Assembly: GCA_037157565.1 (NCBI GenBank)
Contig: JAZHRO010000002.1
Span: 37,964,501-38,028,500 of the forward strand
Reading direction: 5' to 3'
Origin: Thalassia testudinum
Taxonomy: Eukaryota > Streptophyta > Magnoliopsida > Alismatales > Hydrocharitaceae
DNA length: 64,000 nt
The notes beneath the pieces are model-generated. The model did not search any database. It saw only the letters and a program-made list of their open reading frames with translations, and was not told the origin of the DNA. The position numbers were made by a program, and so were the translations under genes. Positions 8,734 to 62,748 of the stretch are shown here, piece after piece. Within the stretch, counting starts at the first letter, position 1, and each line of letters starts with the position of its first letter.

Positions 8734-11499
8734 TGTTAAGACCCAAGACATCAAATGCTTTTTAAGACGTCTGGGAGTTGGTCTAAACTCCTGGTCAGAC
8801 GTCTGGAATTTAATTTTTGCGGCGTATGATTGCGAGTCTACGCGCGTAGACTGTGCCCGTCGACCTACAGGCGTTTCTCCTTTTCTTTTCTCTCTCCCCG
8901 ACGCCTTCAAATACTCTCTCCCCCTTCCCTTTCCCTCACCCACCACTCCACCGTCTCCTCCTTTTCTTCTAGTGTTTGCGTGAGAGTGAGAGAGCGAGGG
9001 CAGCAGCTGCTGCCGGGTGCGTGCGGGGAGGAGGAGGTGCAGCGAGGGGGAGAAGAGGTAGAGTGCGTGAGGAAGAGAGAGCGAGCTTGCCGGAGCAACC
9101 CAGGGCCGGCCGGCGAGCGCACAGCGGGAGCGGGGTGCTGGGGAAGTTACCTCGGTGCTGCTGCAGCTCAAGCAGCAGGCGGACGAGCGCGGCGCGGCCG
9201 TGCACAGCGGGAAGAAGGTGAGAAGGTTCTAATTCTGGGAAAGTTTCCCAGAATCAGACGTCTGGACCTACGTCCAGGCGACGCGAGAGATATCTGTAGT
9301 GAGATACAGACATCTGAAAGGTATGATATTACTTTTCTTCCTCCTTTTTGAGGATGCGACCATGCAGGCCGATCCGCCGAAGTTCTGAGACGTGTTGTGT
9401 TGAGGGGTGATACGTACGCGTGCAGGTTTCGTTTCGGGAAGGTGCAAGGACATGCCCTCCCACACAGATCAGACGTCTGGGCGCAGCACCAGACGACGGA
9501 GAGAGTCTCTAGACGTCCGGAGTGATAGTCGGACGTCTGGAACTATGTCCAGACGGTTCAGCGAGATCCTGGTCGTCTTAAGAACAGCTCAGAGTAAGGT
9601 ATGACCTGGACCATCTTTTAAGACGTTTGGAAGGTGTTCCAGATGTCTGATTGGGGTCAGAGTTGTCATTTTTGACCCGTTTAAGGTCTGTTCGAAGTCC
9701 GATTTCCGCGTTTAAAATTTCATTCTTCTCAGAATTAGTTCCTCTACTTGTTTAAAGTACTTGTATCCTGTTCTGAGTGGTTCCTTGTGTTTGATCCTTG
9801 TGTTAAAACCTCATTCTGTTGCGGATTTAGGGGTTGCGGAGGCACGTGGACCTGCCGATTATGCCCCCATTACTCTCGATTTTGCGGGTAGAGTGGCTTC
9901 CCTTAGTTAATTACAAACATTAAGGCTTATCTGAATTAAATGATAGATCCTAGGGTATGGCATGAATCCTAGGACCTGAAAAGTAGATTGAATGATAGAT
10001 CCTAGGGTGTGGTATGAATCCTAGGAACAGAAACACTAAAATGAATGTCTTGAATGCCTGAATTGCAGTCTCAGATAAATAGATAGAATAATGATAATTG
10101 CCTGTAATTTGATAACAGCTACCTGTGAAATGTAGAGTACTGTTGCTGGTAACTGCTACATGTAATTACTGTCGTTTGGAATCTAAATACGAGCTGCTTG
10201 TATATAAATTGGAAAGGAAAAGAAGTTTGAATGTTGGAAATACATACTATATGTGAATAAACCTGAAATGATGAAACCTAGTATGACTTGGCTTGAGGAA
10301 ACATGAGCACTAACCCTATGGGAAATTAGGAGTAGAACTCCTGAAAATAAATGGAATGGAACTGGAAAAGTAAAATGGGAAAGTGTGTTGTCTCTTGGGT
10401 ATGTGGTACCGAAGAGAGCACATATTACCTCTTAGTGTAGAGGGGAGCTTGCCGCCCTCAGGTCGAGACCGAGGTGTGTTTGGCCACTTTGCACCGACTT
10501 TCTGGCCCTCACGTACACCATACCAGGGAGAGCTGCTAGCGTAGGGAGAGAGCTAGCCACCCCACGAGGCCTGGGGTTCAGCTAGCCGTCCTACACCGAC
10601 TTGTTAGGCCCACTGGGAAAACCAGGGTAGTCAGGCGAGGGTGCGCGGACTATGGATGGGCAAGACCCCTGTTTGGTTACTGTGGAGGGGCTGGACCCCT
10701 GTTACTGAGAGGGCTCTGCCCTATAATGGTTCCGTGCTGTGCTTTGGGGTGCACCCATTAACGGAAACGACTGACCACGTTCCAGTGTGGGGTAGCTACC
10801 CGTGCGTTTATCGCACGTGCCGTAGTCATCGTTACGTCTATCAGTGACCTTGGGGTGGTTGACTGAGGGTAGGACCACCACAGGGTACTCTCCCGGCCAG
10901 GAGAGCACCACGTGCTACTTCTACTTTTCGGAAAAGACTGCAATCAAGATCGTTCCCACGAAGAACATTCGAGACCAATGGAAAGACCTGAGAAATAAAT
11001 CAAGAAAGTGTAAATAGAGAATAAAGAAAGAAATTAAAAACAACAGCTACTTGTCCACCTTTACTGTTTTTCCTAACTAGCCGGTTGCCACTCTACTCAG
11101 CGTTTCGCTGACGTGTCACATTTGTCACCTTTTTCAGGACCAGGTGTTGAGCAGCCAGAGCCTGCGATTGCGGAGGGTGCTGGGCCTAGTAGAGCCCAGT
11201 AGTTGTACTTTTGTACCGTTTTCTTTTCTGTAGTAGTGAGTATTTCCGTTTCACTTGTACTCTTTTATTGTAATCTTCATATTCTGCACTTGTTTATAGT
11301 TCTCTACTGTTGTGGTGGTATGTACTGTAGTAGTTCTTTCTTTACTGCTGTACTTTTGTTACTGTTAGTTACTTGCATTGTGAATGTAGTTTATTTTACT
11401 GCCTTTTGATTACCTTCTCGTTGGACGACTGGGTCTTGGGATCAGTCGAGTCGGTTCGATTCTCATGTCCTGTAGGGATTCGGGAACCGGGTCGTAACA
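8734..11499 (-). mobile_element. Solo LTR F1, probable chromovirus-type Ty3/gypsy
   Basis: A 2766-bp block starting TGTTAAGACCC and ending GGGTCGTAACA (imperfect inverted ends), flanked by CCATC at 8729-8733 and 11500-11504. It has no coding interior and no internal LTR pair, so it is a solo LTR. It matches F2 (20420-23144) and F3 (60632 on). Orientation is inferred from TATA-like sequences in F2 and F3 about 390 bp from the TGTTACGA end; in F1 that site has decayed. It holds AGACGTCT arrays (8765-8804, 9256-9648), a duplicated ~100-bp unit (about 10430-10610) and CACGTG at 10814 and 10909. TGTnAnGACCC ends resemble Del/Tekay LTRs, which is family knowledge, not proof. Confidence 0.82.
9256..9648. 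repeat. 20-bp-period AGACGTCT array in F1
   Basis: Octamers AGACGTCT or near variants start at 9256, 9276; 9288, 9308; 9471, 9491, 9511, 9531, 9551, 9571; and 9621, 9641. Neighbours within each group are exactly 20 bp apart. The ~12 bp between them are unrelated to each other. An upstream pair (8765, 8797) is 32 bp apart. Confidence 0.8.
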
Positions 11500-11505
11500 C
11501 CATCA

Positions 11506-11525
11506 TACCCCCATGCCTAGCTTTT
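11506..11525 (-). promoter_or_regulatory. Polypurine tract of element B
   Basis: Read on the minus strand, AAAAGCTAGGCATGGGGG sits immediately before the 3' LTR, in the same arrangement as in elements A, C and D. Confidence 0.72.
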
Positions 11526-13611: not shown

Positions 13612-15104
13612 TTATGTATATGTAGAGAAAGTGGCACCAATAAGAATTGTGTATGAGAGCTCTTCTAATAAGGGTTCAATGGTGGGTTCATTAAGAGAGT
13701 CCTCATAGTAGCCATCAAATTCGAAGCTAAATGCCTGAAGAGTGCTTATAGGATAAAGAAAATCTAAGTTAGAAAAAGATTCGAATTTGGGATTGTAGTC
13801 ACTCTCGGCATTTTTTGTTTTTGATTCCTGAGGATTGAAAAGAAATAATTCCATCGCAATGGAACCTGATTTTGAATCAGTGATCTTGGGATTAGGGACC
13901 TCAGAGCCGGAGTCGAAGAATGGATCATGTGTGCTGAGGTCGTAGTTTGGATCGTAGTCATCAGGAAACATATGTTCTCCGAAATCATGGTAGGATTCGA
14001 AATTGTCGGAGAAATTGCGAGAATCAAGTTTTGAATTTGATTCAAGATCAGAGGTTCCACTACAGAATAAATCACAAGATGTAGATTCAGCAACCTGACT
14101 TGGGTCTAGCCTATTCATAGATTCCGAGCTTAAAAAAGTGTCCTTATTGGATCTGGACTCAAGTTCTTGGCTTGTAGGGAAGACCCAATCAAAACCCCAC
14201 TCTTCCAACTCGGATTCTGTATCGTAGATTGGCATGACTGCCGAAAAATCAATCTGTATCTCTGAGGATGTTGAAGAGGGACATTTATCAAATAAAGGCC
14301 CAAAATCATAGTCCCAATTCAAACTTTTATCTTCGTCATACGGGACCTTGTAATTATCCCAATAAGATTCAAATCCAGATTCTAGGCTAAGGATGTGGGT
14401 TGAATTACTAAAATCTAGTCAGAATTGCCTTTGGGGGTTACCTTATCAAGATAAGGGGTGGAATTTACACTTTCGAGAGGTTCTAATTCAATCTTATTAT
14501 TATAGGAGTTTAGGAATTCTATACTTGGGTTTTGGTTTTCTAGTGATGGCTCAAAATTGTGTTCTCCTACAATCAAGACCTCCCAACCTAATTCAAGATT
14601 AGGCATATCATATTTCATCTGGTTTGAGAATTCACAACAACCTTGTGTCTCAAACCCAGGAATTGGGAAATCATGTTGATCCTCAATATTATTCCAAAAT
14701 GTTTCATTAACTGTTTAGGGCATGTACAGGTATTTGTGATCGATAACTTGTTTCAACAATTTCATCATTTCTTTCCGTTTTTCAATATCATCTTGGTGTT
14801 TTTCCCAAAGTACAGAATTTGTCATACATTGGAGATATTCAAAGTTATGCAATTTTTCTATCTCGATGTATCCTATTATGAGAATATCCCGGGTTGATCC
14901 CTTTGTTGCTTCTGTTAATAATAATTGAGCACAGTTTATGATGAAGGTTGTTGTTGTTGATACATCAACCTGAATGTCTTCAATTGGTTTTGAGGTTTTG
15001 TAATCAATTTTATAAAATCTAAGGGCATCCTCAACCATTCTAACTTTCATGGATCTTTGTGATTCAAGTTTCTTTAATGGTTTTCTTAAGTAGCTAAGCT
15101 GCAT
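13612..15104 (-). pseudogene. Unknown acidic ORF of element B, broken by one stop and one frameshift
   Basis: I do not recognise this protein. On the minus strand it runs from an ATG at 15104 (MQLSYLRKPLKK) to a stop at 13612, about 497 codons if read through a stop at 14715-14717 and a one-base shift near 14430. Composition stays protein-like and similar on both sides of each break, which suggests a single former gene. The N-terminal ~130 residues are mixed and basic, with a Thr run and a KRKEMMKLLKQ helix. The rest is rich in Asp, Glu, Ser, Asn and Phe with many short DYDxNYD-like acidic stretches. No zinc knuckle, DTG/DSG, FMDD or DDE motif is visible. It starts about 1.17 kb from the PBS, where gag starts in element C (about 1.07 kb). 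It could be a captured host sequence or an accessory ORF like those of other long gypsy elements. Confidence 0.55.
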
Positions 15105-15232
15105 TTTTGAATCAGATGGTGGAATCAAGATGTAGAATCAAAATTCAAGTTTAAAATGAAGTGATTTCATCTGAAAGAGATTCCCAATGAAAATATGTGT
15201 GTGTGCTCTAAATAGAAGGGATGACGGACTGG

Positions 15233-16296: not shown

Positions 16297-19006
16297 TGTT
16301 AATCGTGCTAAATCGGGTGTTAAAAGTGTTGCGTTGTATTACAGCCGAAATAACGTTCAAAACAAATATAATTTTATTACTCAAAAATGTTTCGAGGTCA
16401 AACACAGGGAGCAAATTGAATTTACACACTAATCTCAACAATAAATGCAAATTAAACACATAATACTACTCAAAATCTAATTAGGAGTGTAGAGCATGAG
16501 TATATGAAGAGTAAAAAGAAATTTAAATAAAATAATGGAGAGCATATGAAAATCAGACGTCTGATTTTGCAATCAGACGTCTTAAATGACTTGTGCTACA
16601 GTCCCTTTCTTCTTCTGATTTCTCTGATTCTTCTTCTTCACTTCTTTTTCTCTTAGCTTTTCGTCCTCTTCCTTTCTTCTTCTTCAGCTTCTGTCTTTGG
16701 CTTCTTCTTCTCCTCTCTTCTGCCTTGGCTTCCTTCTTCTTTCTATGCATTTGGCCTTCTCTTCCTCTGAGGTCCTGTTTCTCTTCTTCTCTTCTTCTGC
16801 CTGACCTCCTCTTCTTCCTCTGAATTGGCTAAGTGTTGGAGCAATCTCTTCAGAGCAAAACCCCCCTAACCCCACGCAGCTCTCCTCTCTCCTCTCTTTT
16901 CTATTTCAGTCTCGCTCTCCCAAAGCCTTTAGCCGGTTGGGTAATCGGACCTAACGCAGACCCGGGTCCAGACTCACCGGCGTGTGTTGTAAGCGAGGAG
17001 TGTAAGGTCAAGTTGGGTAGTCGGGTTGGCCAGGTCCACGTATTAGGTGTCGCGGACGAGTCCAGTGAAGGGGGGGAGGACCTCACCCTCAGTGTTGGAG
17101 GCGAAGAGCCTACAACACTATTTCAATTTATGCGTGTGAAGGAAAATTTCCACTTCCGAGGTAGGACTAAATGTCCCACATTCCTTTTGCTTACCGCAGT
17201 AGCAGGGTGTTGGCCAAATTGAAGGGGTTGCGACTGCTGGAGCCTTTGCTTGAGGGCTTGGACACCTGCGCACCTTAAGTCCGCACAGCCTAGGACTATC
17301 CCTTGGAGCAGAGCAGGATCTGGAGCAAAGCAGCAAGCTCGAAGCTTTGGCAGCAATGGCGGCCGTCATCCTGCTACCTGAAATCAAGAGAACGGCCTTT
17401 CGGCCACGTCAAATCATTTAGGGACAGTCGCCGAAGCACGGTGAATGTGATGGGAGTGGTTTTGTGGCATGTGGGTGCCTGTGGTGGCGTGCCTAGGTCA
17501 CATTATGTGCGTGTGAGTGGGTGTGTTCGGTGAGGTGTTTTGGTGAGTGGCATGGTGAGTGGAGTGAGGGGAAGTCATCAAGGAGATGAGGCGGAGGTCG
17601 TAGGGTGGTCGGTAAGGTGGATGGAGGTGTGTAGCGACAGAAACACCTCGCCGGAGGTATCGCCGGAGATGGAGGAGGCGAAGGTGTTTGGTGGCGTCAG
17701 TGGTTGGTTTTGGGAAATAAAGAGAGGGGGAGAAAGTGTGAGAGAGAGGGAATATAAGACCTACCTCTAAGGGACGAAAAGTATAGGAATCCCATGCCGA
17801 TATGGTTGCCGGACGTGGGGAAGATGAAGCCTCCGTAGATGAGGCTGCAGCGAAGACGAGGTAGGGACAGCGTCGGCCGATATTGCGCGACGCGGAAGAC
17901 TGTGGTGGAGATAACCCGAGCACTGGTATTGTGGTTGGGCAATGAGAGAGCTAGGGAGAAACTGTCGGAGCTTGCAGAGGGTTGTGGCTGGAGGGGAGAG
18001 AGGAATGTGAGGGAATCTAGCCCAATTTCAAGCTGAGAACTTCGATTTTGATCTAGGGCTTCTTAAATAGATCATTAGTGAGGGATTTGTGCTTGGAAGC
18101 CAAGCTTCCAAGTAAGGAAAACTCACCGGAGATGGAAGCTTCAAGAGTCCCAAATCTCTTATGCGTTCGCATGAGAGATTGGGAAGGAATCAGTGCTTAT
18201 GGACAGGTTCATAATGGAGGGATTTTCTCAGAGAATCTCCCTTCCAATTTTGGAGGGGATTCCCTGAGCAATCAAGGAGAAATCTCATTTCAAAGCTCGC
18301 CGGAGTAGGATTCCTCCGCGATAATGGCCGAGGGATCCACTTGTGAAGACGAAGAGAAAGATAGGGGGCTATTTGTAAGGGTTTTTGAAAGTTAGGGGTA
18401 GAAATGTAATTAGACAAATCCTTTTTGCAAACTAGGTCAAGATGAGTTCCCCTTAGGTCCAAATTTTGGTACAAACCTAATTTGGACCTAAGAAATCCAA
18501 TGGTGAAGTTGAATTTTTGTTTTGACCACGTTTGACTGTGAAATTTATGCAAAAACCTAAATTAGGGTAAATATCTGTCTGAGACCCTATTCTTGGTCAA
18601 GTTGGGTTCCAATGGCAAAATTGAAGGTATTAAACCCTAGAAAATATTTTTCTGTGAATTTTAGATTATTTAGGTGAATTTTATTCTGACCAGAACCTTG
18701 GTTAATCAAGTAGGTCTATTTCTAGGATTTCAAGAAGTCATTTAATTCACAGAACATACACAAACACTTTTCTGTTAAATCCAACCTACTTGTTATCTTA
18801 TTAAGACCATTTGACCTTTATTTAGCCCTTGAAAAAACCTGTAGCTGTACTGCATTGGTAAAATTATAGTTTTACCCCTTGTTTCTTGTGTTTCTCTCAG
18901 AAAGGTTATGCAGTGAATTATGACCTTCAGTTGGTTATGTAGGAGCATTTATTCTCTTCATTAGGTCAAAATGAGCTAGTTAAGGCTTATGATGGTGTTC
19001 CCATCA
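16297..19006 (-). repeat. Element B 5' LTR (right)
   Basis: A 2710-bp block from TGTTAATCG to CCCATCA, aligning with 6043-8733. It contains the two-unit module AGACGTCT at 16555 and 16575 (20 bp apart), a CT-rich block (16600-16860), and on the minus strand a TATTTAAG promoter-like site near 18065, about 940 bp from the LTR start. The short open frames in it are shadows of CT-rich DNA. Confidence 0.87.
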
Positions 19007-20419: not shown

Positions 20420-23144
20420 TGAAACGACTCGCTATCCTTTTGGGCTATTTAAGACGTCTGGATTAGCCGTCAGACGTCTGTCCAGACGTCTGGAAAGAGG
20501 GTTGGACGTGTGAAAGTAAAAGAACCGTACCTTGTATTCTTTTTCCGCTCATGCACATACGCACACACCTCTCCCTCCATTACTCCATTCCCTAACCCTC
20601 TCCTATTTAATCCCCACTCCCCCCCCCCCCCCCACGCCACTCTCTCCATCTCCATCGACCACCACCTTCATCCTTCTCTCCTGCCAGCCGCCACCTTCCT
20701 TCCAGCCACCAGCATGGTGTGTGGCGAGGAAGAAGAGAGGGACGGGATGAGGAGGAGAGGGGAGCTCGAGAGGAGCTCACGAGGGTGCCGCGAGAGTATG
20801 GGAGGAGCTCGGAGGAGCTTGTGCACGAGGAGGAGGAGCTCACAAAGGTGGGCTTCGTGGCCTCCTGAAGCTGCCGGCGTAGCAGTCACGGGTGGTGTGA
20901 AGGGGCCGCGCAGATGAGAAGGCTTGCGAGAGTTCTGTGTATTGGACATTTTCCAGTATCAAACGTCTAGAGCATCTCCCAAATGTATGGAGTAGCAAAA
21001 GGATGTCCGGAGCTAAAGCCGGATGTCTAAAATCACGCTCAGTGCCAAGGTACCTACTTCTGTGCAGTTTACGGCCATGCAGGCCTTACCGTAGAGATTG
21101 TCCAGCCATTTTTACATCTACACGTACGTACGCAAGGGGCAGGGAGTTGGAAAGGTGTGGGGTGCACCCTTCGAGGTGCTTTTAGATGTCTAGACACGTC
21201 GCCAGACGTCTGACAGTACCTCCAGATGACCGGAAGGAGATTCCGACGTCTAGAACTACCTCAGACAATCGCGGAAGGGTCCAAATGTTCGAGGTAGCCA
21301 CAGGAAACCCAGGGTGGGTATTGACATCTTTTAAGACGTCTAGGATTAGACCCAGACGTCTGATTTTGGACAGTGTGAGTGTTTTTGGCCAGTTTAAGGC
21401 TTAAACGAAATCGGATTTCCGCAAATGAACTATCGTTGTTTTTCGCTTGAGTTTCTCTACGAGTTAGTGTCACTTGTATATGATTTTGGACTCGTTTGAT
21501 GAGGTTGGTTAATTGCATAGGTCTCCAGCCAGTCGAGTACGCAGGAGTCGCGGAGGCGATGGGATCTGCGATCCGAGCCCCCATTCCTCCCATGTTTGCC
21601 GGTAGAGTGGTTTACATTAATATTATGATTTAAATAAATGAACTGTATGTTTAGAATAACTTGAATGAACCCTAGGATGAGAATGAACTCTAGGGTAAGA
21701 ACAAATGAGTATGGCTTGAGCTATGCTGTATACTTGAGATGCATGTAGAACCCTAGGATGAGAATGAACCCTAGGGTAGGAACAAATGAGTAGGGTTGAG
21801 CTACACTGTTTACTTGAGATGCATGTAAAACTTTAAATGCTAGCAAATGTATTGGTTATTTTAATGTGATGTCTTGTCAGTTAGAAAATCATGAGCTTCC
21901 TGTTTTAAGAATGGAATCGGAAATGTAAATAGAGAGATCTGAAAGTTTGGAATATGAAACAAAAGGAATACCAGCATGAACCCTATGGGGAATTAGGAGG
22001 AAAACTCCTGTATACAGGAAGTGAGCTGGCCCTTATGTACGCGGTACCAAGGAGAGCTACTGTTCCTTCAGTGTAGCAGAGTACTAGCTGCCTATTGGGT
22101 TGAGCCCTAGGGTCAGGCCTAGACACTTTACTCCAACTCTGTTTGGCCCTCGTGTACGTGGTACTGGGGTGAGCTACTTAGTGTAGGGAGGGAGCTAGCC
22201 GCTCCAGGGGGCCTAGGGTTAGGACTAGCCTCCCAACATCGACTCTTTTTAGGCCCAGTGGGAAAATCGGGATAGTCGAACGAGGGTACACAGACTGTGG
22301 AGAGGCGAGACCCCTATTCTGTTCTATTCTGAGAGGGCAAGGCCTTGTATTATTCTGTGTTGTACCTTTAGGCGTACCCTCTAGCGGAAACGACTGACCG
22401 CGTGCCATTGCGGGATAGCTACCCGTGCGTTTATCATGCGTACCGTAGTCATCGCTACGTCGCGACTATGACATCGGGGTGGTTGATTTATTACCACAAG
22501 GGACTCTCCTGGACAGGAGAGCACCACGTGTACCTCCTACATAATGGAAAAGACTGCAATCAAGATTGTTCCCGTAGGGAACAGGTCAGATCAAGAAATG
22601 ATTTAAGTGAATAAAGGAACAACAAATTAGAAGTACTTGGTTGAACTAAATGAAAATGGATAGTTACTTAATTGCATTAATTAATAGCTTGTCTTAATTA
22701 CATGTAAATGGCTAAATTACCACTCTACTCAGCGTTCGCATACTCCGAAAATTTTTTTATAACCTTATTCAGGTCAGGAGTTGAGTAGTTAGCATCACCG
22801 GCTACAGAGGAAGCTGGACCTAGTCGAGCCCAGCCTTAGCTATGTTTCTTACTGTTTCCCTAACTTCTATTGTAGTAGTGAGTATTTTTGTTCTATGAAA
22901 TACTGTTTCAGTTACTTTTCCGCTGTACTTCCCTCTGTCATAGTTGTGATGGCCTATAATATTGATAGCCTATTCGCTCTGTTTCTTTTACTGTCTCTTG
23001 TTTTTTTTCTGCTTAATTACATTACATGAGTGGATGTGAATTATTTCTTGCTTTTGGTTATTTCTCGTTGGAAGACTAGGTCTTGGGATTAGTCGAGGCG
23101 GATCAATCTTGGGTCCTGTAGGGATCTGGGATCGGGTCATAACA
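20420..23144 (-). mobile_element. Solo LTR F2, same family as F1
   Basis: A 2725-bp block from TGAAACGACTC to GGGTCATAACA with GGGAT duplicated on both sides. It aligns with F1 in its right two thirds (for example 23060-23144 with 11420-11499). There is no coding interior. On the minus strand TTATAAAAAAATT near 22757 is a TATA candidate about 385 bp from the TGTTATGACCC end. It also holds a poly-C run near 20620-20632, AGACGTCT arrays, and a duplicated ~100-bp unit (about 22030-22260). GA/CT-rich open frames around 20510-20950 have no recognisable protein features. Confidence 0.82.
20452..21361. repeat. 20-bp-period AGACGTCT arrays in F2
   Basis: Unit starts, exact or variant: 20452, 20472 (plus 20484); 20959, 20979, 20999, 21019; 21184, 21204, 21224, 21244, 21263, 21283; 21334, 21354. 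Within groups the spacing is 20 bp except one step of 19. Six are exact AGACGTCT (20452, 20472, 20484, 21204, 21334, 21354). Confidence 0.8.
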
Positions 23145-25928: not shown

Positions 25929-28737
25929 TGATGATGGTCGTTGTCGCAGTGTTTTAAAAAGATACACGTAGTATATCGTGAAAAACGATTATCAAATTTT
26001 ATTTATTTATTACTCGAAATTCAAAAATATTCCGAGGTCGAACTCAGGGAGCAATTCGATATTTAGAAACAGAAAATCACAATCTCAAATATGTTCAATA
26101 CTGATGCAAGGAAGATAAATGCTAGAGAAAAAAATAAAAAGGCATAAATTCTTTTTCTTCCTTCTTCTCCTCTCTTTCCTTTTCTCTTTGCTTTCTCTCT
26201 TCTCTTCTTTCTCTATCTTTCCTGTCTTCAGACATCTGATTCTGTGAATTAGACGCCTTAAGTGGTGTTCTGCTACAGTGTTTCTTCAGGCTCCTTCTTC
26301 TTCCTTCTCTGCTACGGCTCCTCCCTTCTTTTTTCTTCTTTGGCTTCTTCTTCTTCTCTTCTTGAGTGGTTGTGCCTCCTCCTCCTTCTTCTTCTTCAAG
26401 TCCTTCCTCTTCTTCTTCTTCTGTGGCTCCTTCTTCCTTGGCCTTTTTGCGGCCAAGTCTTCAGCTCCTTCTTCCTCTGCCTCTGCAGACCTCTTCTTCT
26501 TTGGTTCCTTTTCCGGCTAAGTCTTGGGTTTCTTCTTCTTCTGCTGCTCCTCTCCTTCTTCTTTCTCTTCTTCTTCCCCGCAGCTGCGTCCTCTTCCTCC
26601 TCCTTCCCTGCACGGCACAGAGACGCAAAACCTACCCCCTACCCTCCCCGCATCTCTCTCTTTCTATTTCTCTCTTCGCTCTCTCAGAGCCAGTCGGGTA
26701 ATCGGGTCGGGTTACGTGCCCCCGGGTCCAGGCGCACCATGTGGGTGGTCCGTGAGGAGTGCAGGGTAAACGGGTCAGGCCAGGTCTGCGGAGGCGTGGG
26801 TCACGGGTGAGACTGGGTCGGGTGAGTAGGACCTCACCCCGTGGATCTGAGGCGATAAGGCTATGGCACTTTTTCAATTTAAGTGTCACCTCCCGCTCGT
26901 CAGCTTTCTAGGTGGGACTAAATGTCCCACCTTCGCTTTGCGAATGCCTGTGGTAGATGTCGTGCTTGATTGCAGCTACAACGAAGACTTGTAGCTACAA
27001 TTAGAGGTCTGGAGTCGTGCACGAAGGGAATCCGTGCGACCTGGGCTAGTGACCTGGGGCTCGTGAGGTTTGGAGCAGCTTGCAAGCTTGCTCCAATGGC
27101 GAAGGTGGCTCCGAACCTGAAAACATGAACACAGCATCACGGCTCTATCAGATGCCTTGGGGAGCTTCGCCAAGGTGTGGCGAATGTGCAGAGGTGGTCG
27201 ATGAGGCGTGGGAACGCCAATGGGAGCATGCCTAGGGCACACTGTGGAGGTGCAGGTGGGTGTGTTCACGGGGTGGTTCGTGTGAGTGGCGCGATGAGTG
27301 GAGTGAGGGGAAATGATCAGTGAGGTGAGGCAAAGCTCGTAGGCTTGTCAGCGAGGGGTGGGAAGGCTTGTGGTGGTGGAGCGGCCTCGTCGGAGTTGGT
27401 GGCCGGAGGTGGAAACGATGGTGGTGGTAGTGGCACCCGAGGGGTCAAAACTAAAAATTGATGAAGGGGAAATGAAGAGTAGAGTGAGAGGAACTTAACT
27501 AACAGGTTTTGAGTGAAAGGGGAAGGTGGAGGGCAAGCGGCGGGTACTGCCATCACCGGAGACGAAGAGGCCCAGGGGAGAGATGACGGCGATGACGAAG
27601 AGGGTCGGAGGACGCGTGCTGGTACGGCACAACGCGGAAGAGAACGACGGAGCTGGTTCTGCCACCAGTACCGTGGCAGAGAGACGAGAAGAGGGAGGAA
27701 GAGTCGCCGGAAGCTTCAGGCAGTCGACCGGAGTGAGGAGGAGATGAATTTGGGGGTAATCTTCGGCCAATTCGAGCTTGAAGGAAGCGGCGAGGCCTGC
27801 GCTTCCTTAAATAGGCGTAGGCAGAGCGGGAAGTGCACGGAGGAGGCAGGAATGCCATGCCGGAGGTAAGGCTAGAGGGAGACCCATACCTCTCGAGCGT
27901 TCGTACGAGAGGTATGGTAAGTTTCAGGGCATGGGGAGTTGCCCATGCAGTAGGGGGCTCCGCAGGGAGCTCCCCTTTCAAATTTGGGGACAACTCCTCA
28001 TGCAAGCGAGGAGAAAACCTCCGCGCAAAGTCGCCGGAGGTACGGTCCCTAATGTGATGGCAGAGGGACCGAAATGAAGAAAGAGACGAAGAAGTTAGGG
28101 GCGAATTTGCAAGGGTTTCAAAAAGTTGAGGGTCTGAATGTAATTTGGAGGACCACTTTGCAAAGTGGGTCAAGACGACCTTCCCTTAGGTCCAAATTTT
28201 GGTATAAACCTAATTTAGACATATGGAATCCAATGGTGAAGTTGGATTTTAGGTTTGACCACGTTTGACTGGATATTTTGCACAAAAACCCAAATTAGGT
28301 CAAATATTGGGCATGGACCCTAATCTAGGTCAAAACAGGTTCCAAAGGTCAAATTGAAGGTTCTAAACCCTAGGGGATATTTTGCCATGAATTTTAGAGG
28401 GTTTATTTGATTTTTATATTGCCTGAAACCTTGCGAATTAAAGTAGGTTTTTTTTAGAGTTATAGAATGTCATTTAATTATCAAATTTCACAATAATCCT
28501 TATCTGACTTAACCATCCCATTTTTTCTCTTATTAAGTCCAATTGACCTATGTTTAGACCCTTAGAAATCCCGTTGATGTACTGCAATGGTAAAATTACA
28601 ATTTTACCCCCTGTTTCATGTTTTCCTTTCAGATCAGTAATTCCCTGAATTAGGCCTTCCTTAGGTTTTGTAGGAGCTTTTGTTCATTCTATCATATCAA
28701 AATATGTTAGTTAGAGCTCATGATGAGGTTCTCATCA
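25929..28737 (-). repeat. Element C 3' LTR (left)
   Basis: 2809 bp from TGATGATGGTCG to GTTCTCATCA, aligned with 37470-40182. It contains a degenerate two-unit AGACGTCT module (26230 and 26251, 21 bp apart), a long CT-rich block (26150-26590) and a minus-strand CTATTTAAGG promoter-like site near 27806, about 930 bp from the LTR start. Numerous open frames in the CT-rich block encode Ser/Leu/Phe runs and are not genes. Confidence 0.9.
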
Positions 28738-32750: not shown

Positions 32751-33858
32751 TCAGATGTCCCTTATCGAGCAAGGCATAGGGAGCTTGGAAATCAAGTTAA
32801 CCTTAGCTCGATTGACTTGGATGCCCCTCCCAAAAATCAAATGTCCTAGGATGATCCCCTCAGGCACCATGAAGTGGCTCTTTTCCCAAGAAAGAACCAG
32901 ATTCACGTCAATACATCGCCTGAGTATTTGAACCAAGTACTGGAGGCAATCGTCAAAGGATGCCCCAAATACTGAGAAGTCATCCATGAAGACTTTCAGA
33001 TAATCACCTACCATATCAGAGAATATGGCAAGCATGCACCGCTGAAAAGTCGCAGGTGCATTGCAGAGACCGAAAGGCATCCTTCGGAACGTGTACATCC
33101 CAAAGGGGTAGGTGAACGTGGTCTTCTCTTGGTCCACTAGATGGATCGCCACTTGGTTGCAACCGGAGTGCCCGTCAAGAAAGCAGAAGAATCTATTTCT
33201 CGTTAGTTTTTCGAGGATCTGATCAATAAATGGTAGTGGGAATGATCCTTCTTCGTGGTGGAATTGAATCTTCGGTAATCAATGCAGACTCTCCACGAGT
33301 TGGCTATACAGGTCGGTATGACCTCTCTAGCTTCAGTCGTGATTGTGGTGAGTCATGCCTTCTTAGGCACAACTTGGATTGGACTCACCCATCGACTGTC
33401 GGAGATCGGGTAGATGATCCCTGCATCTAACCACTTAATGGTCTCCTTTTTCACGACCTCATGCAGATTAGGGTTCAGACGTCTTTGCATTTCACGCGAA
33501 GGTCATGCACCCTCTTCGGAATAGATGTGGTGTGTGCAATAAGAGGGACTTATGCCAGTCAAATCATTGAGAGTCCAACCAATGGCTCTACGATGTTGCT
33601 GGAGAACAGTAATCAGATGGGATTCTTTGTCAGGTGTGAGTCTAGAGTTTATAATCACAGAAAACGTCTGATTGGAACCCAAAAAGACGTATTTCAGATG
33701 ATCAGGAAGGGGCTTGAGTTCCAAGACGGGATTATCAGCAGCAGTGGGTGGTTCAGAGTGAGTGTGAGGAACAAGGATAGGAGTTATGGGTGTATCTAGA
33801 TCAGGTTCAGCCTCCTCTAATTGCGAGTTTTGTTCTTCTTGTGGTTGATTGGGGATAA
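32751..33858 (-). pseudogene. Element C reverse transcriptase
   Basis: Two readable pieces. The first (33503-33858) covers the acidic linker and the RT N-terminus, where HHRRAIGWTL-like text matches element A. The second (32751-33152) covers VDQEKTTF, RRMPFGLCNAPATFQRCM and the catalytic FMDD (32979-32990) through to the SKLPMP block. Between them the RT fingers are frameshifted. The catalytic aspartates remain. At the position of element A's TAG stop (1138) this copy has CAG, which supports a C to T origin for that stop. Confidence 0.88.
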
Positions 33859-37440: not shown

Positions 37441-37463
37441 GTTGCTCCCCGGCAACGGCGCCA
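37441..37463 (-). promoter_or_regulatory. Primer binding site of element C, tRNA-Asp
   Basis: The minus strand reads TGGCGCCGTTGCCGGGG, a perfect 17-base complement of the 3' end of plant tRNA-Asp including CCA. It lies 6 bp inside the 5' LTR. This PBS type is typical of Athila/Tat elements. Confidence 0.95.
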
Positions 37464-43968: not shown

Positions 43969-46900
43969 TGTGATGACCCAAGTCCCACCAAGGGATGAAA
44001 CCCGGGTCGTCGTATGCTAATAACCAGCACAACTTGCCCACAAGATCATAGTCACCCAACACATAATCATAAAATATAAACATAGCTAACAAACAATTCA
44101 TATTGCATAAATTAAATAAACATAAATTGAATACTAACAACAAGATTTACAGTAGAACATAAGTATATATGTGACGACCCGAATCCCACCAAGCGACGAA
44201 ACCCAGGTCATCATGTGCTAACAACCGGCACAACACTCCTACAAGATCGCAGTCATCCAACACATAATCACAAAATATAAGCATAGCCAACAAATAATTC
44301 ATATTACGTAAATTAAAGGAACATGAATATTATACTAACCGAAAGATTTACCATAGAACAGAAGTATATAATTCCAAAAAATCACCTTACGAACTACTAA
44401 GTATACCTGAGTACGGAACCCAATAACACGTCAGTAAAGACTAAGTAGAGTAGAAACAACAACAGCAAAGTGTAACGGTAATCGAACACAAGAGAATGTG
44501 GGTATTATAGCTTTAATTAATCCATTTATTAGTCATCTCGCTATTTGGTTCCATTTCGTATATTGGAAGCCCAATTTATTATAGTCCAAATTTTATCAAT
44601 CGACGTCTCAGGAGCGAGATGATCTCGTGTAACTTCCTACAATGCAAGACCAGTATAAGTTACCCTCCTATCCGAAAAGATGGCTTATACCCATCCAGTC
44701 ATCACTCTTTATCACCCTGGGGTCATTGTGGAAAGAGGTGGTGGTTACGTCGTGCAGCGTGAACACATACATGCGCCATGTACGCTGAATCACAGACAGC
44801 CAATGGCCCATCCACCAGCCGAGAAAAAAACCAATCCAACGCTCGAACCGTACATCCTGCTATCCCAGTGGGTCTCTAAGCCTAACCAAAAAGTCGTAGG
44901 GAGGCAAGCAATTCCCTAAATCAGCACAGAACCGGTCTAATAGACCAAAGCTATAGTTAAATCCGACTAGTAGCGGGCTAAAACCAATTATCAAATTCCT
45001 TTAATTCTCGACAAATTCGTCGTACTGATCAGTTGATCATTTTCAGATAACTGTATCAATATCTATCGATTAAGCCATAGCTCTCATCACTTTAAACCAT
45101 TGATCTAAAGTTATGAAAAGAGTTCATATCACATAATTTTCAATCAAATTATTATTTAACCATCCTGATGATGCCAGTTTTACTAAAGATAGGATTTATT
45201 TCATACATGCGATAACAAAATCACATCCCATATTCTAAGTGCTTCATAATTCATTTAATTAATAAAAATTATCTAATAAATTGTTGTCAATCCCTTTTAA
45301 CTCGACAGGTAAATATATTGAATTGATTATACACATTCTAATTCAACAACTTGATTTACATTAACCATATTTAATGCTCAAGTATCCAAGATAGCAAAAA
45401 ATACGAAAATGGGCCCAATCTCAGCAAGAGACAAGAACGCATACTAAACTGTGCAACACACGAAGAAAGTCATAATGTAGACAATCACATAGAAAAAGAA
45501 AATAACTACTCTACCTAATGTCACCGGAAGCTCACGATAACTCAGTAATTGGCATCTATTATTTCTCCTTCGCTATTCTAGAGGCCCGTGTATTTTGTAC
45601 ATGCTACAGGACTAAATCAACATCAAGCCATGTGGGGAATAAAATAAAAATGTTAACGGATTTTGCTAAAATTTTATGCAACAAATAATTTTCAAATCAT
45701 ATTTAAAATTTACTAATGCATAATTGGTAGAGAGACAATTCCAAAGAATCCTAAAATGTGGAAAATGAGCGTTGTTTAACCTCGAAAAACAAGAAAAAAT
45801 GCACGACAATAATGCCGCACGCATGTAAACCGATGCTTACCTCGAAAAACGTACATCAACCGTACGTTGACATGCCTGCACCACTCCCCTCTCTCTCTCT
45901 CTTCCCATTCATGATCTCTGCCTCTCCTCCTTTCTTTCCTATCTCATCTCTCTCTTTCCCTCGATCTTTCCCCTCTCTTTCTTTCGATTTTTCCTCTCTT
46001 CCGAGCTCTCCTCTTTCTCCTTCGATCTTGCTCTCTCTCCCTCCCAACCTCTCCCTTCAACTCCTATTATTTATACCCAACGGCAAAACAACCCAAGTAT
46101 GTGATCCCAACGAAATCTACTCCACCGATTTGTTTTTTTTCTTAGTTATAAGAATTTTTATTCTTAACGTTATTATCATTATTATTAAAATTCCTTTACA
46201 TACTTTTATCATAAAAATTACATTTTTGCAAAATAGATATCGTTGGAAAGCTTACAATGAGAGAAATTTAATGACACTAATTTCGACATATTTTGAACAC
46301 GTTTCCAAGGATGACCATATTTGACTAAAAACTCAATTTTCTAATTTTCGAAATACACAAATCTAATTCATGCTCCGAAAGTTCATCTTGACGTGCTTAG
46401 CAAAAAAAAAGACCTTGGAAAGTAGGTTCGGGTCTTTACAATATAAGCCCAAAGACATGTAAAACGGAAATCACATTGCAAACTGCCAAGTATACCTGAG
46501 TATGGAACCTAAAAACTTGTCAGTAAAAACTTAATAGAGTATAAATAACAACAGAGTGCCACAGTAACCGAGAGCAAGAAAAAATGAGTGCTGCAGCTTT
46601 AAGTAATCCATTTATTAGACATCTCGTTATTCGGTTCCGTTTTGTATATTGAAAGCTCAAATATTATAGTTTACAACCTGTCAATCGACGTCTAAAGGTA
46701 AGAGACGATTTCATGTAACTTCCTATAGCACAAGATCAGTATAAGCCACCCTTCTGACTGAGAAGATAGCTTATATCCATCAGGTCACTACTCTGTCACC
46801 TTGTGGTCACTACGAAAATGGGTGGCGGGTACGTCGTGTGACATGAACACGTACAATTGCTATGTATGTTGAACCACTGACAGCTAATGACCCACCCACC

Positions 46901-53232: not shown

Positions 53233-54726
53233 ATGGACATTATTAAGAAACATGAAGATATTCTATTGATAGAAGAACTCTACTTGCACCAGAGATCACG
53301 TCATGACTGGGTCAACAGCGGGGACAGAAATACTAAATTTTACCACCTTCATGCCTCTAACAGAAGAAGGAAAAACAGTATAGAATGGCTGAGATTACCG
53401 AATGGGGTAGAAACAGGAGACCAGAAACTCATTCGCAACTGTTTTTGGGAGCATTTCTCTCTTCTATACAAGGCTGAAAATGGGGACTACCCCTTGCAGA
53501 ATTTCTTTGAAGGATCGGACTGGGTTAAGTCTGAGGAATGGGACTGGTGTGCTTCAATTCCTGATTCTGAGGAAATCAAAAATATTTTATTCCATATGCC
53601 ACCTTCAAAGAGCCCGGGTCCAGACGACTTTCCTACTTTATTCTTCCGTAACAGCTGGGATCTGATTGGACAAGATGTCATCAAATTCGTTAGAACTTGC
53701 TTCTTGGAAGCCTCCATGCCGGCTGAAATGGGAAGAACTTACTTGGCCTTTGCTCCGAAGGTAATAAATCCTATTGAACCAAAGGATTATAGACCTATTA
53801 GCTTGACTAATTTCTTATACAAATTGGTGGCCAAACTTGCAGCAAGAGGGTTAAGTCCGGTGCTTCACAGTCTCATAGCATCTAATCAATCTGCTTTCTT
53901 GTCGGGTAGACAGATATCTGATAATGTCGTATTGATTAAGGAGATATTCCATGCTCTAAAGACAAGGAAGAGAAAGCGTGGCTCCATGGCGATAAAGCTA
54001 AATATGGAAAAAGCTTTTGATCATCTCGAATGGCGCTTCATTCATTTTTGTTTGAGTCAATTGCATTTTCCTACTTTATTGGTCAATCTTGTTTTGTCTT
54101 GTGTCTCCTCTGCATCTTTTGAAGCTATTGTAAATGGCAACACTGCTAAAAGTATTATTCCTACTAGGGGTGTAAGACAAGGATGCCCGCTCTCCCCTTA
54201 TCTCTTTATCTTGTGCACTGAATTTTTTTCTCGTTCCCTATCTGCTTCACTTCTTCGTAGGAAAATATCGGGTTACCAAATAGCCAAAGATGCCAAGCCT
54301 ATCTCTCATCTCATATATGCTGACGAAACAATTCTCTTTGCTAAGGCAACATTGGAAGAGGTGCATGAACTAAAGACTATCTTGCAAGAATATCAATTAT
54401 GTTCCAGTCAGAAGGTTAACTTCACAAAATCTAGAATTTATTTTGGAAGAGGAATTACTGAAGATGTCAGGAAGGTCATTATTTCAGAAATCAAGATCAA
54501 TTTGATGTCTAAATCAGAGATATATCTGGGAAACCCAATTCTGGAGTCAAAAGGCCAGCAAACATTACATGATTTGGTCTTAGGGAAATGTCAGAAAAAA
54601 AATAGCAGGCTGGAAAGGAAGGTGCCTGTCCCAGGCTGGAAGAAGTGTGTTGCTGCAACCCTCATTGTTAACGGTTTGCAATCACTTCATGTATACTCAT
54701 CTCTTCTCAAAAAAATTAGCCAATGA
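53233..54726 (+). pseudogene. LINE reverse transcriptase
   Basis: A 497-residue open frame with the L1-type RT blocks in order: RSRHDWVNSGDRNTKFYH near residues 18-35, the KSPGPDDFPTLFF block, YRPISLTNFLYK, the SAFLSGRQI region, MEKAFDHLEW and GVRQGCPLSPYLF. The catalytic box reads YADE (Tyr at 54316-54318) where YADD is expected, so the second aspartate is replaced by glutamate. A frameshift near 54650-54720 moves the rest of ORF2 into the next frame. The ATG at 53233 is internal to ORF2, not a true start. Confidence 0.9.
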
Positions 54727-55744
54727 TATTGACAGGTTGTCTAGGGACTTCTGGTGGGGTTTCGAAGATGGAAAAAGACACTTTTATCCTAAATCTTGGC
54801 AGTCTATATGCCTTCCTAAGCATATGAGAGGATTGGGATTTGGGAATACTCATCTTAATAATTTTGCATTTCTCGTGAAGGAGGGGGGTTTTTTGCAATC
54901 GCAATTGAGGGCGAAGTATTTCCGTAGGGGTTCTTTTTGGGATTATACTCCTAAGGCAGTAGATTCACATTTTATGAAGGCTATCCATCATATACAGAGC
55001 TGCTTGTTCCAAGAAACATGTTGGTTAATAGGTGCTGCTGATAAACCGTCTATCTGGAGGGATAAATGGATTCGAGATTATGATGATCCTCTCATACCTG
55101 TATGTACTCCTTCTGATATCAACTCTGTTGGAGACTTAATGGATGTGGAAAATTATACATGGAATGCTCCCCTCATTGCTCAGCTATTCCCTGCTGGAGT
55201 GGCTGCAAAAATCCTATCCACGCCGTTCCATAGAAACCAGGAGGATAGATTGATCTGGTCCCCTCATCCAAGAGGCGTCTTTTCCGTTGTTAAGTCTGCT
55301 TATCATTCTCTAATTCTTCATTTCCAGAGGTCTGCTACTCAAGATGCTGCTGCTATAACTTTCTGTAAGAAAATATGTTCCACAAAGCTTCCACCTCGTG
55401 CCAAATTGCTTTGCTGGAAAGCATCGGTAGGAGCGCTTGCAACATCCTCTAGATTGGCTGACAAAATCAATACCATTCAAGCATCTTGCATCTTATGCAG
55501 GGAAGGAAATGAGGATGAGCAGCATTTATTTCTCAAATGTCCCTTCACTAGAGCTATATGGTTTAAATTCGGATTCAGATTAGATAGATTTTTGGTGTCT
55601 TGGTTTATGGTCTACCAACAAATCAGCGAACTGCTACTTAATTCTGAACAGAATCCCTCGCTTCCCTTCTTATTACTTATTTCTTATGGACTAACAGATG
55701 TTCAGTGGCCCATGGAGATGAAGGTCAGAGAATTTAGGATTTAA
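54647..55744 (+). pseudogene. LINE ORF2 middle: post-RT region and zinc-finger domain
   Basis: Continues ORF2 in the next frame. It includes DFWWGFEDGKRHFY and KSWQSICLPKHMRGLGF, typical of the region after RT in plant LINEs. A zinc-finger RT-associated domain follows (about 55375-55590), with CSTKLPPRAKLLCW, CILC and HLFLKCPF providing the Cys/His ligands. It ends at 55744 by a further frameshift before RNase H. It belongs to the same broken gene as the RT above. Confidence 0.87.
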
Positions 55745-55839
55745 CTTCCCATATTACTTCTTCTACCAATATGTTCTCAACGCAACAGGAAGTACATCCT
55801 GCTTAAATATCTCAACGAGACACTCCTTTAGCTTCCCAT

Positions 55840-56310
55840 TTGGGTTCAGTTGAGTCAATTGAACTCAGTGGTTGTAAAATTATAGTTGATGCTGCTGTCA
55901 GAGTTGATGGCTCATTGGTAGCTGCGGTTATCATGGACTCGGATGATACTGTCATTGCAGCTCAAACGGCTAGACATTCCACGACAAACCCTGAGGAAGC
56001 CAAAGCTTTCGCGATTCTTCAAGGCTTACGTTTCGCCTTGTCTTTGACTTACTCAAGGGCATGTGTTCTTAGTGATGCCTTATCGCCTGTTAGTCAAATC
56101 AATGGATCTATGCAACCTTCGTGGAGATCTCTTCGTATTGTAAATTTTTGTCGGTCCCTTCTTCGTAAGTTTCCTTCCTTTAAGGTCTTACATGTTTCTA
56201 GATCTGAAGTTGGGGTGGCACACTTTGTGGCAAAATTCTGTATTAGGTCTGATACGGTTGGTTCTTGGTATGATTACTCCATTCCGTGTCCTGTATCTGG
56301 TTGCACATAA
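55840..56310 (+). pseudogene. LINE RNase H domain
   Basis: A 156-residue frame with VDAAVRVDGS (first Asp), NPEEAKAFAILQGL (catalytic Glu) and VLSDA (second Asp). This is the RNase H-like domain found at the end of ORF2 in many plant L1 elements. It is in a different frame from the preceding piece. The stop at 56308-56310 fits the natural end of ORF2 and is followed closely by the T/A-rich tail. Confidence 0.87.
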
Positions 56311-59300: not shown

Positions 59301-60631
59301 GAGTAGAATTTTCTTCTCTTTTTTGCACTTGTGCGAAGGTTACCCTTACTCCTAGCAGCTATTATTCGGTAGTGCAAGGGGGTAGGTCCTTCATTGCTCC
59401 CACTTGCCTTTTAGGAGGGGCTGTTTGCAAACTGTCTCCTGCAAAAACAAATCAAAAGTAAGATATAAGTCACAATGGAAGTGCTAGAATTCAGTTTCCA
59501 ACTTTGAACTTGATCTCGACCCACTGTCTGACTGGCGAGATTGGAGACTCAAGCTCTCCCGCCAAGGTTCATCACATGAAACCAACACTCACAGGGAGCC
59601 TGGGGTTTGGTCTAGTTAGGGTACCCGCTGGCAACTTGTCCTGTGTAGGTGGCAAGTGCTTGTTGGAAACGTGAGGGGATTTTTCAGTCCCAGTATGTAC
59701 TCATTCATAGGCGGGTGAAGTGATTAGTGGTATATAGATAATATTTGCAAATACAAGTATCAATTGCACAAATAAAAAATTGGACTTATCTTTGGTGGGG
59801 GATATGGTTGGAGCAGCGCTTGGCTGTGAGTGAGGTCGCTAGCCTCATAAAATCTCCTTGTTTATTTTCTTCAGGTGGTCCCCTACTTGATCACATAATA
59901 GTTGTGGTAAAGTAATAGGTGGGGGTGGATGTCGGTTCACCTCTTCTCTAGCTATCAACCATATGATCAAGCGGGAATGGAGATGAGCAGCAGGTTGCCT
60001 TACAAGTCTTTTTTTTATTTTTTTGGATTGGAGGTCAGTCAGTCTATTAGATAATCAAGTGGTGCCCAAGACAAGGTTGCTTCTTCAATTGTGGAGAGGT
60101 CTTCCCATCTCTTCCCCTTCTCTTTTTTTCTGGAGGCCTCTAAATTGTTTGCCCGACCTTCGTGGCACTTGTAAGAGAGGACGGTAATTGGCCCAAGAGC
60201 AAATGGTGCTCGACCCTCATTAATGGCAGAGAAGAGACAGTGATCAATTGAGAGGGAGATCCATGTTAGATTTGATGGTTTCAACAACATCACCATTGAT
60301 GGTCACAAGGAGGTGGGATCAGACTACAATGAGGTGCCCTAACATGGCTCTAAAGGGAGAACTAGACCTCTCTCAAGGTTAGGTGAAGTCCTGAGCAAAT
60401 GAAGCCCTTGGTGGAGGAGCTCCTACTGGGTGCAACCCTGGCTGAGGTAGAACCTTAGGTGAGAGGAGGGACCTTGAGCATGTCGACTAGAGGAGGGCCA
60501 GCCAACCTCCACAAGGAATCGGTTGCCTCATGGACTAGCTGACACCTTTAGGTTGGGAGCTCCTTCGACATGGCCGAGGGGAGCTCAAGCGAGGTGCCCC
60601 TTAGCGGGGTCAGCTAAATGGTAGGAGACAC
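56343..60631. other. AT-rich low-copy-looking DNA, no recognised gene
   Basis: No match to the repeat families in the window and no convincing ORF. 57000-57400 is C-rich with short overlapping frames on both strands. 57485-57720 repeats GATATTAA-type words. 59138-59377 (minus) has an open frame without recognisable features. A small or exon-fragmented host gene cannot be excluded by eye. Confidence 0.45.
57485..57720. repeat. Degenerate GATATTAA/AATATCAA word cluster
   Basis: ATTGATATTAA-like words recur in both orientations within ~235 bp of AT-rich DNA. It may be an old tandem or palindromic repeat; no clear unit length is visible. Confidence 0.4.
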
Positions 60632-61550
60632 TGTTACGATTTGATCCCGGCTCCTTACTGAACCTGAGAACAGCCACCTCGACTAGATCCCATGACCGAG
60701 TCGTCCAACGAGAAATAACCAAATTCATAAATCATTCCACAACTACACATGTAATTTAACTAAGCAAAAATAGATAATAGACAACAGTGGGAATATAACA
60801 GAATATCTCAAAGATATTACATGCCACAAGTGGAATAGAAATATTCACTAACATAGTCATCACACAAAAATAGAGAGCAACATAATAGAAACAATTACTA
60901 CATGCTAAAAGTATTTACTACTAACAAAAAACCTCTGCAACGAACAAGAGAAATAACGACTACAGCTGGACTCGACTGGGCCTAGCACCCTCTGCAACCA
61001 GTGGCAATGGCTGCTCAACTCCCTAATCTGAACATGGTTATATAAATCTATGGTCAGCTAACGCTGAGTAGAGTAGTATATATGTCATTTACATGTAATT
61101 AAACATAAAGGAACAATTAAATAACTAATCATACAATTTTCACTTATGTATTAATATCTGTTTCCATTTAAATTATCTATGTGTTTCTGATTCGATTATT
61201 CTAATGAGGATCCACAACATTTCTTAATCCACTTGTTCCCTAAGGGAACGATCTTGATTGCAGTTTTCCCATGATGCAGGATGTACACGTGGCACTCTCC
61301 TGGCCGGGAGAGCACCCCCTGGTAGTCCTACACCTGGTCTACCACCCCGAGGTCATTGCCGTGATGTAGCGGTGACTACAGCATGTGCGATAACTGTATG
61401 GGTAGCTATCTTACACTAGCATGCGGTCAGTCGTTTTCCCTAACGGGTACGCCCAAATGTACAGCACAAAACAGAACAAGAGCCACACCCCTCAACAGTC
61501 TACGTACCCTCGCTCGACTATCCTGATTTACCCAATGGGCCTAGCAAGAG

Positions 61551-61745
61551 TTGGTGTAGGGTGGCCATTCTTAACCCCTGAGTCCCAACCCAATGAGCGA
61601 CTAGCTTCCCCTTACACTAAAGTAATAGTAGCTCTCCTGATAGGAGTCGGTGTAGGGTGGCCATTCTTAACCCCGGGTGCTAACACAAGGGACGACTAGC
61701 TTTCCCCTATACTAAAGTGATAGTAGCTCTCCTCAGTACCGCGTG
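61551..61745 (+). repeat. Two-copy 96-bp direct repeat in F3
   Basis: TTGGTGTAGGGTGGCCATTC at 61551 recurs with one change at 61647. Equivalent duplicated units are present in F1 (about 10430-10610) and F2 (about 22030-22260), so the duplication predates these insertions. Confidence 0.72.
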
Positions 61746-62218
61746 CACAAGGGCCAGCTCACTTTCCATACCCAAGTCCATATAACTAATCAGCCCATAG
61801 GCAACATGTTCCTGTTGGTGCTAGAGCACCACGATCATTTGTTTTGATAATAACAAAACACGTGTCATTTAACATTTGCACTTTGAGTCCTAGATTTCAG
61901 GTCAATCGCAAATGGATACGTGATTAGACGGAGTTCGAGCTCGCATCCAGGACGGATTGGAGGAGCTCGATGGAAAACAGAGGAGATTCGCGAGGAGTGA
62001 TAGATTGAAGAAGGAAGGAGATGAAGAATAGGATAGATTTCATTCTCTTGTACTCATTGTATTTTTTGTTTCTTTTGTTGCTCTTTATTACTTAGATTTC
62101 TGTTAAAGAGCCTCAAAGTACCCTAACAGTAGTCCTAGCAACACCTGCACAACCCTAGGATATTTAGGTTTTCTGTAGAACACTTACAAAACCAATATAG
62201 GGTTCAAACAGAGTTTCC

Positions 62219-62748
62219 AGAAGTCTAATTCCCAAATCAGATGTCTGATAAAGTATTTTAAGACGTCTAACTGTTGATTCAGACGTCTGATAACTATTAG
62301 GCTGGACATACTTAATTCTGTCTGATGAAATCAGACGTCCAGACCTTAGACCAGACGTCTTAGGAGACGTCTGATGACTTTGCCAGACGTCCAATTAGTG
62401 GAACGTTGGCTGGCTTAGCGAACAGTCAAGAATGTGACCGTTAGAGCCTTATCAGACGTCCATAGGACTTTCCAGACGTCTGATAATTGACCGTTTTGCC
62501 TCGACTGACCCGAAAATCTCTTCTCAGAGATTTTGTAGCAGTTGCAAATCCATTCCCATGAAAAAGTAGGTTTCCAGACGTCCAGACATAGTGCCAGACG
62601 TCATGTATGTCGTCTGATGGACTTACACTAAACCCTGTTTAGATCTGATCCATGTCAGGAAGAGACTCGCCCAAAATCAGACGTCTGACCTTGAAATCAG
62701 ACGTCTTAAAGTGAACTTCCAGACATCTGATGCCAGAATTAGACGTCT
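62219..62748. repeat. Eight-pair AGACGTCT array in the copia-like LTR
   Basis: Octamers (exact or one or two changes) start at 62219/62239, 62261/62281, 62333/62353, 62365/62385, 62454/62474, 62575/62595, 62679/62699 and 62721/62741. Every pair is exactly 20 bp apart. Eight are exact AGACGTCT. Distances between pairs vary. Confidence 0.85.

Follow-up and report, generated by a model that had tools for sequence, protein, structure and literature searches.

Can unrelated retrotransposons carry one and the same paired DNA site in their long terminal repeats (LTRs), and what might such a site do? The question is raised by a 64,000-nucleotide stretch of the Thalassia testudinum genome (contig JAZHRO010000002.1, positions 37,964,501 to 38,028,500, forward strand; hereafter the window), in which the palindromic octamer AGACGTCT recurs within LTRs, repeatedly at a start-to-start distance of exactly 20 bp. 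This pattern had been noticed by a model that saw the letters alone (the original prediction), and it was followed up here in the window, in the whole assembly and in the literature.

Palindrome pairs in the window and the genome

AGACGTCT was the commonest palindromic octamer of the window and occurred 22 times, whereas 100 dinucleotide-shuffled sequences gave 0.65 on average. Five LTRs, with a combined length of 12,607 bases, hold 21 of these copies: two LTRs of a family named F (4 in F1 and 6 in F2), two Athila-like LTRs named B1 and B2 (3 together), and one LTR formerly called copia-like and here called Sirevirus-type (8). The original prediction had given the same counts for each LTR, but its total of 21 with every copy in an LTR was one short; the 22nd, at 33477, lies outside the five LTRs and has weaker neighbours at 33662 and 33685.

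For near matches, a pair was accepted when each octamer had at most 2 mismatches and both together at most 3. There were 20 such pairs exactly 20 bp apart in the window, whereas 100 first-order Markov sequences gave a mean of 0.2 and at most 1, so the excess of 20-bp distances over randomised controls, on which the original prediction had staked its periodicity, was found with the Markov controls. All 20 pairs were inside the five LTRs, for which the expectation was a mean of 0.03 and at most 1. Distances of 12, 32, 42, and 52 bp also recurred, indicating that the usual unit is the 20-bp pair and not one long ladder; the pair may stand alone, be doubled as 20/12/20, or, in the second array of the F LTRs, be extended to a short run at 20 bp.

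The window belongs to an assembly of 4.26 Gb in 237 contigs, in which the exact pair AGACGTCT-N12-AGACGTCT occurred 212,299 times. The same octamers were found only 825 times with an N11 gap (19 bp) and 896 times with an N13 gap (21 bp), an approximately 240-fold preference for 20 bp, and by arithmetic 16 fixed bases are expected about once by chance. When the pattern was read backwards (TCTGCAGA), the N12, N11, and N13 gaps gave 6, 3, and 3 places, respectively. As this control contains no CpG, pairs of TGACGTCA at 20 bp were used as the CpG-matched control, and a single one was found in the assembly, which is the chance level. The periodicity first seen in the window is thus confirmed on the scale of the genome.

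An independent sample of 140 kb, taken as 28 stretches at round-number coordinates, contained 29 exact octamers, and the commonest distance was again 20 bp (6 exact pairs, 19 with at most one mismatch). Pairs were present in 9 of the 28 stretches, 8 of which match LTRs of the window (F, Sirevirus-type or Athila-like); the ninth, L018, had no match to any of these. The pair adjoins the aligned LTR blocks instead of falling within them at L010, at L012, and in L013 for its second pair region. The first 100 places listed of the 212,299 were assigned by nearest spacer to F-like (61) and Sirevirus-like (39) groups, a loose assignment, because with this threshold all spacers fall together under single linkage.

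Three groups of LTRs with the same boxes

The Sirevirus-type LTR (61813..63532, forward strand) is a solo LTR with 5-bp repeats GTTCC on both sides, inserted in a third F-type LTR, which is in reverse orientation, and is homologous to L029, L003, L032, and L020. It carries 16 boxes with at most one mismatch, forming 8 pairs of exactly 20 bp each, at 62219..62748. A TATA box of the cTATA(A/T)A type follows in the middle of the LTR (62861..62868, forward strand); its CTATAAATAG context was present in all five copies examined, and in each of them the distance from the start of the last box to the TATA box downstream of it, TATAAATAGA, is 120 bp. The Sirevirus junction between LTR and primer-binding site (PBS), CA-ATTGG-TATCAGAGC, was seen at two loci of this group, L020 and L032, and was exact in both; the window copy has no PBS of its own because it is a solo LTR. 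The same two loci have the C-rich signal CTGATCTCACCCC(CT)CC approximately 14-16 bp before the LTR end; the average distance given in the passages of Bousios 2010 (PMC2829016) used here is 21 bp. Judged by published LTR landmarks, the copia-like LTR is therefore of Sirevirus type, and its boxes belong to a known kind, the palindromic RM boxes of Sireviruses, for which at least 8 palindromic copies per element are expected and 16 were counted. The only ORF found at L039 was a Retrotrans_gag ORF of another kind. At L039 (1954-5459) and L032, a span of 8.5 kb contains three Sirevirus-type LTRs of the same direction, with about 80 bp between two of them.

The F group is a different kind of element. 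F1 (8734..11499) and F2 (20420..23144) are solo LTRs on the forward strand, the strand of F1 being taken from the PBS in its relative L021/L038, and they are flanked by the 5-bp target duplications CCATC and GGGAT, respectively. F2 is a distant relative of F1, with 67% identity in the 3' part. Each has two arrays. The first array, in which distances of 20 and 12 bp alternate, has boxes at 8765 and 8797 in F1 (8765..8804) and at 20452/20472 and 20484/20504 in F2 (20452..20511, spaced 20/12/20). The second, which combines a short 20-bp run with a pair, extends over 9256..9648 in F1 (run at 9471-9558, pair at 9621/9641) and over 21184..21361 in F2, in register with 9471-9648 of F1 at an offset of 11713. 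A TATA-like site, near 8907 in F1, follows the first array and precedes the second in F1, F2, L014, and L038. Between two F-type LTRs, L038 encodes RVP_2, RVT_1, RT_RNaseH, Integrase_H2C2, and Chromo domains; the Chromo match scored 26.9 bits (cut-off 25.1), and an rve match of 26.7 bits was below its cut-off of 32.6. A PBS of the Met-tRNA type, TGGTATCAGAG, adjoins the LTR in L021/L038. Together with the RT-RNaseH-INT order and the chromodomain, this identifies the F LTRs, on domain and PBS matches, as those of a Ty3/gypsy chromovirus. They are presumably of the Del/Tekay lineage, a name that we take from LTR length and ends only.

The third group is called Athila-like, which is the label of the earlier reader and not an established lineage. 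There is one pair per LTR in this group. B1 (6043..8733, reverse strand; ends from the match to B2) holds AGACGTCT together with AGACCTCT at 6301..6328. The original prediction had let the pattern begin at 8765, too far downstream, as this LTR copy at 6301 precedes it. B2 (16297..19006, reverse strand) is 90% identical to B1, and both octamers of its pair (16555..16582) are exact. In two more Athila-like LTRs, C1 (from 25929) and C2 (from 37470), the pair is decayed and its distance is 21 bp; that of C1, an LTR related to B, is at 26230..26258. The sense strand of B1 was deduced from a PBS-like sequence adjoining a related LTR at 37447; this sequence, TCCCCGGCAACGGCGCCA, adjoins C2 and presumably matches tRNA-Asp. 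RNase H domains at 1174-2292 place nothing more finely than Ty3-type. The claim that the octamers are spread over unrelated LTR families is therefore upheld, the families being Sirevirus-type, chromodomain Ty3/gypsy, and Athila-like.

What the boxes may be for

The dyad symmetry of the box extends beyond the octamer, as YCAGACGTCTGR, and across F1, F2, and the Sirevirus-type LTR the outermost flank positions were Y in 33 of 35 sites and R in 33 of 35. Position 1 or 8 of the octamer can change to G or C, and partner boxes kept G at position 2 (68/69) and C at position 4 (63/69). Boxes were better conserved than spacers between distant relatives: 39/48 columns (0.81) versus 160/329 (0.49) for F1 and F2, 0.94 versus 0.55 for F1 and L014, 69/72 (0.96) versus 509/815 (0.62) for L005 and L014, and 103/122 (0.84) versus 263/428 (0.61) for the Sirevirus-type window copy and L020. 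In close copies, by contrast, the two did not differ (0.91 vs 0.91; 0.93 vs 0.92), as would be expected of selection on the source elements followed by neutral decay after insertion. The spacers, as had been proposed, diverge while the boxes and the spacing stay. CpG retention gave a mixed picture when boxes were compared with other CpGs, and no argument is built on it. No clear rule emerged for inner versus outer half-sites: 40 isolated pairs had 50 outer and 35 inner mismatches, and 23 tandem pairs had 25 outer and 33 inner.

These features would suit a cis-regulatory site at the LTR promoter, in which the two palindromes are paired sites for a symmetric DNA-binding protein of the host, a reading that we prefer to the others and to which we give an even chance of being right. 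A host protein binding as a symmetric dimer would recognise YCRGACGTCYGR, and two such dimers, about two helical turns apart and on nearly the same face of the DNA, would bind together. Several pairs would act upstream of the TATA box in Sirevirus-type and F LTRs, F having a second set downstream of its TATA-like site. Unrelated LTR lineages would have gained and kept the code since it drives their transcription or shields it from silencing. The idea of a protein-DNA array, already part of the original prediction, gains support at the sequence level from the exact spacing and from the conservation of boxes over spacers.

Several observations weigh against the paired-site reading. Athila-like pairs often have one non-palindromic octamer. 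The second F array is downstream of the TATA-like site, where a role in RNA is also possible; the TATA-like strings of F were picked by eye, and F copies vary, 1 of 7 (L006) having no TATA-like match at that place. In the conservation comparisons, the alignment columns depend partly on one another and the sites were taken from only one of the two sequences compared, so the p-values serve as a guide. The distances other than 20 bp (n=34) fit a period of 10.0 bp strongly but one of 10.5 bp not significantly (p = 0.13), leaving face-phasing between pairs unproven. Of the helical spacing originally proposed, the exact 20-bp pair stands, but phasing beyond the pair does not appear at 10.5 bp per turn.

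That LTR lineages of both superfamilies converged on this one code, two YCRGACGTCYGR sites 20 bp apart with a single host protein as the reader, which would couple the activity of unrelated elements, is a more tentative proposal, and we consider it somewhat less likely to be true than false. Its competitor is shared descent, in which recombination or template switching carried one box array from family to family, with divergence afterwards. Box and spacing are identical in the three groups, nested and solo LTRs offer chances for exchange, and some pairs of different groups have TTTA before and GATTTT after the pair. However, outer-flank matches between groups did not exceed those of column-shuffled flanks, which reached the observed value in a fraction of 0.063 for F and Sirevirus-type, 0.593 for F and Athila-like, and 0.263 for Sirevirus-type and Athila-like LTRs. 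A larger shared module thus gained no support; the absence of outer-flank homology between groups beyond that of shuffled flanks favours convergence over a moved module, and we consider common ancestry of the arrays distinctly improbable.

The self-complementary box pairs could instead fold in RNA, or as cruciforms, into stems of 8-12 bp, as a source of small RNAs or with a role in the genomic RNA. An analogous proposal exists for palindromes of maize Sirevirus LTRs, whose palindromic boxes are described as small-RNA mapping hotspots in the part of PMC5311732 consulted. In F, AGACGTCC is followed by GGACGTCT, and among 44 distinct spacers the inner flanks were complementary more often than expected (37 vs 21 at position 2, 23 vs 11.8 at position 3). 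But within the F-like (9 clusters) and Sirevirus-like (8 clusters) groups this excess was gone at positions 1, 2, 4, and 5 and small at position 3, and only position 6 of F was clearly in excess (0.46 vs 0.24); it is mostly a difference between groups, the boxes being CC..GG in F and TC..GA in the Sirevirus type. When 39 dereplicated pairs with a non-palindromic octamer were compared, 5 were nearer to an inverted repeat, 6 to a direct repeat, and 28 tied. The split of these pairs and the within-group flanks both weaken general RNA hairpin compensation, and hairpins have no inherent demand for exactly 20 bp over 19 or 21; we consider folding an unlikely explanation overall. The stem-loop alternative raised by the original prediction nevertheless fits some Athila-like copies. 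At L012, L013, and L002, octamers of the AGTCGTCT and AGACGAC types form an inverted repeat with a 9-11-bp stem (AGTCGTCT-N12-AGACGACT, as opposed to the direct-repeat form), with a 4-base loop in two of the three, and the complementary-arm spacer GATTCTGTGAATC, which matches the C1/C2 type, recurs far apart among the 21-bp places listed. With such inverted arms and spacers, a hairpin or a dimer of half-sites may apply in the Athila-like group.

Two further readings also involve a host protein. A repressor or a methylation-nucleating protein could read the pair as a defence against several LTR groups; the box contains a CpG, stands in the LTRs of very numerous elements, and many of its variants are TpG or CpA. 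Yet losing such a site would benefit the element, whereas the boxes occur in numbers and are kept from one source lineage to another, and a silencing site is accordingly quite improbable. Plant bZIP proteins bind GACGTC, the C-box core, and the core of the partner box is often intact, as the counts at positions 2 and 4 show. Many bZIPs prefer T at the outer octamer position, but none of 35 intact-core partner boxes was TGACGTCA, with T and A at the outer positions. Given also the single TGACGTCA pair in the genome, a TGACGTCA-type bZIP site is weakened, and a bZIP C-box array, as originally suggested, is the least probable of the readings considered.

Relation to known LTR boxes

Palindromic boxes in LTRs are themselves already known, contrary to the original prediction, which was not aware of such an LTR feature. 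In the passages of Bousios 2010 (PMC2829016) used here, Sirevirus RM boxes are repeated, palindromic, CpG-holding, and clustered upstream of a conserved TATA box; they are called Sirevirus-specific and absent from the other Ty1/copia elements examined there. The boxes described here resemble them in being many palindromic CpG boxes upstream of TATA, and their LTR group shows the PBS junction and C-rich signal of Sireviruses; the RM box of Usier, GTCGGACGTCCGAC, has the same GACGTC core as AGACGTCT. By contrast, 12 of the 13 published RM boxes have a CGG-CCG signature (the 13th, Tnd-1, is without it), which is not found in the Sirevirus-type boxes, where only the core AGACGTCT and the variants GGACGTCT/AGACGTCC occur. 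Those passages describe no fixed spacing for RM boxes, whereas here the pair is rigid at 20 bp, and here box and spacing are also present in Ty3/gypsy LTRs.

The F group can be compared with the Del/Tekay elements of Cruz 2014 (PMC4029996), likewise chromodomain Ty3/gypsy elements with long LTRs. The sections of that paper considered here report CpG islands in the long LTRs and, for some groups, a variable 5' region rich in CpG, but no CpG islands for the eudicot group, and the string 'palindrom' is absent from its main text. Our literature search, outside which most subscription papers lie, returned no report in which copia and gypsy LTRs had a box and its spacing in common, and no title among the matches listed for the letters of AGACGTCT had an LTR topic. 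What is new is thus the rigid 20-bp spacing of the pair and its occurrence in both superfamilies.

Palindrome-rich regions of maize Sirevirus LTRs are reportedly small-RNA hotspots, a finding attributed to work by Bousios et al. from 2016. The palindromes there, too, lie in the regulatory part of the LTR, but that work reportedly reads them as hairpins and small-RNA sources in one genus, and we know of no code common to superfamilies for them. Sirevirus palindromic boxes, published in 2010, have no known binding protein. The pair offers a defined 28-bp bait for finding such a protein and for testing whether one host factor activates or silences different groups of retrotransposons. If the paired-site reading is true, the more than 200,000 exact copies would place it among the commonest paired binding sites of the genome, and much of its 4.26 Gb could have its activity set by a single factor.

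Some other features were recorded. At 43969-44370, a 201-bp unit is present in two tandem copies starting TGTGACGACCC and resembles the start of long gypsy LTRs. A LINE-type coding region lies in pieces at 53233-56310, with RVT_1, zf-RVT, and RVT_3 matches. In a scan of viral contigs, one exact 20-bp pair was found at 6926-6953 of the phage contig L001, in a promoter-like intergenic stretch; it may be an operator and is probably unrelated to the LTR pairs.

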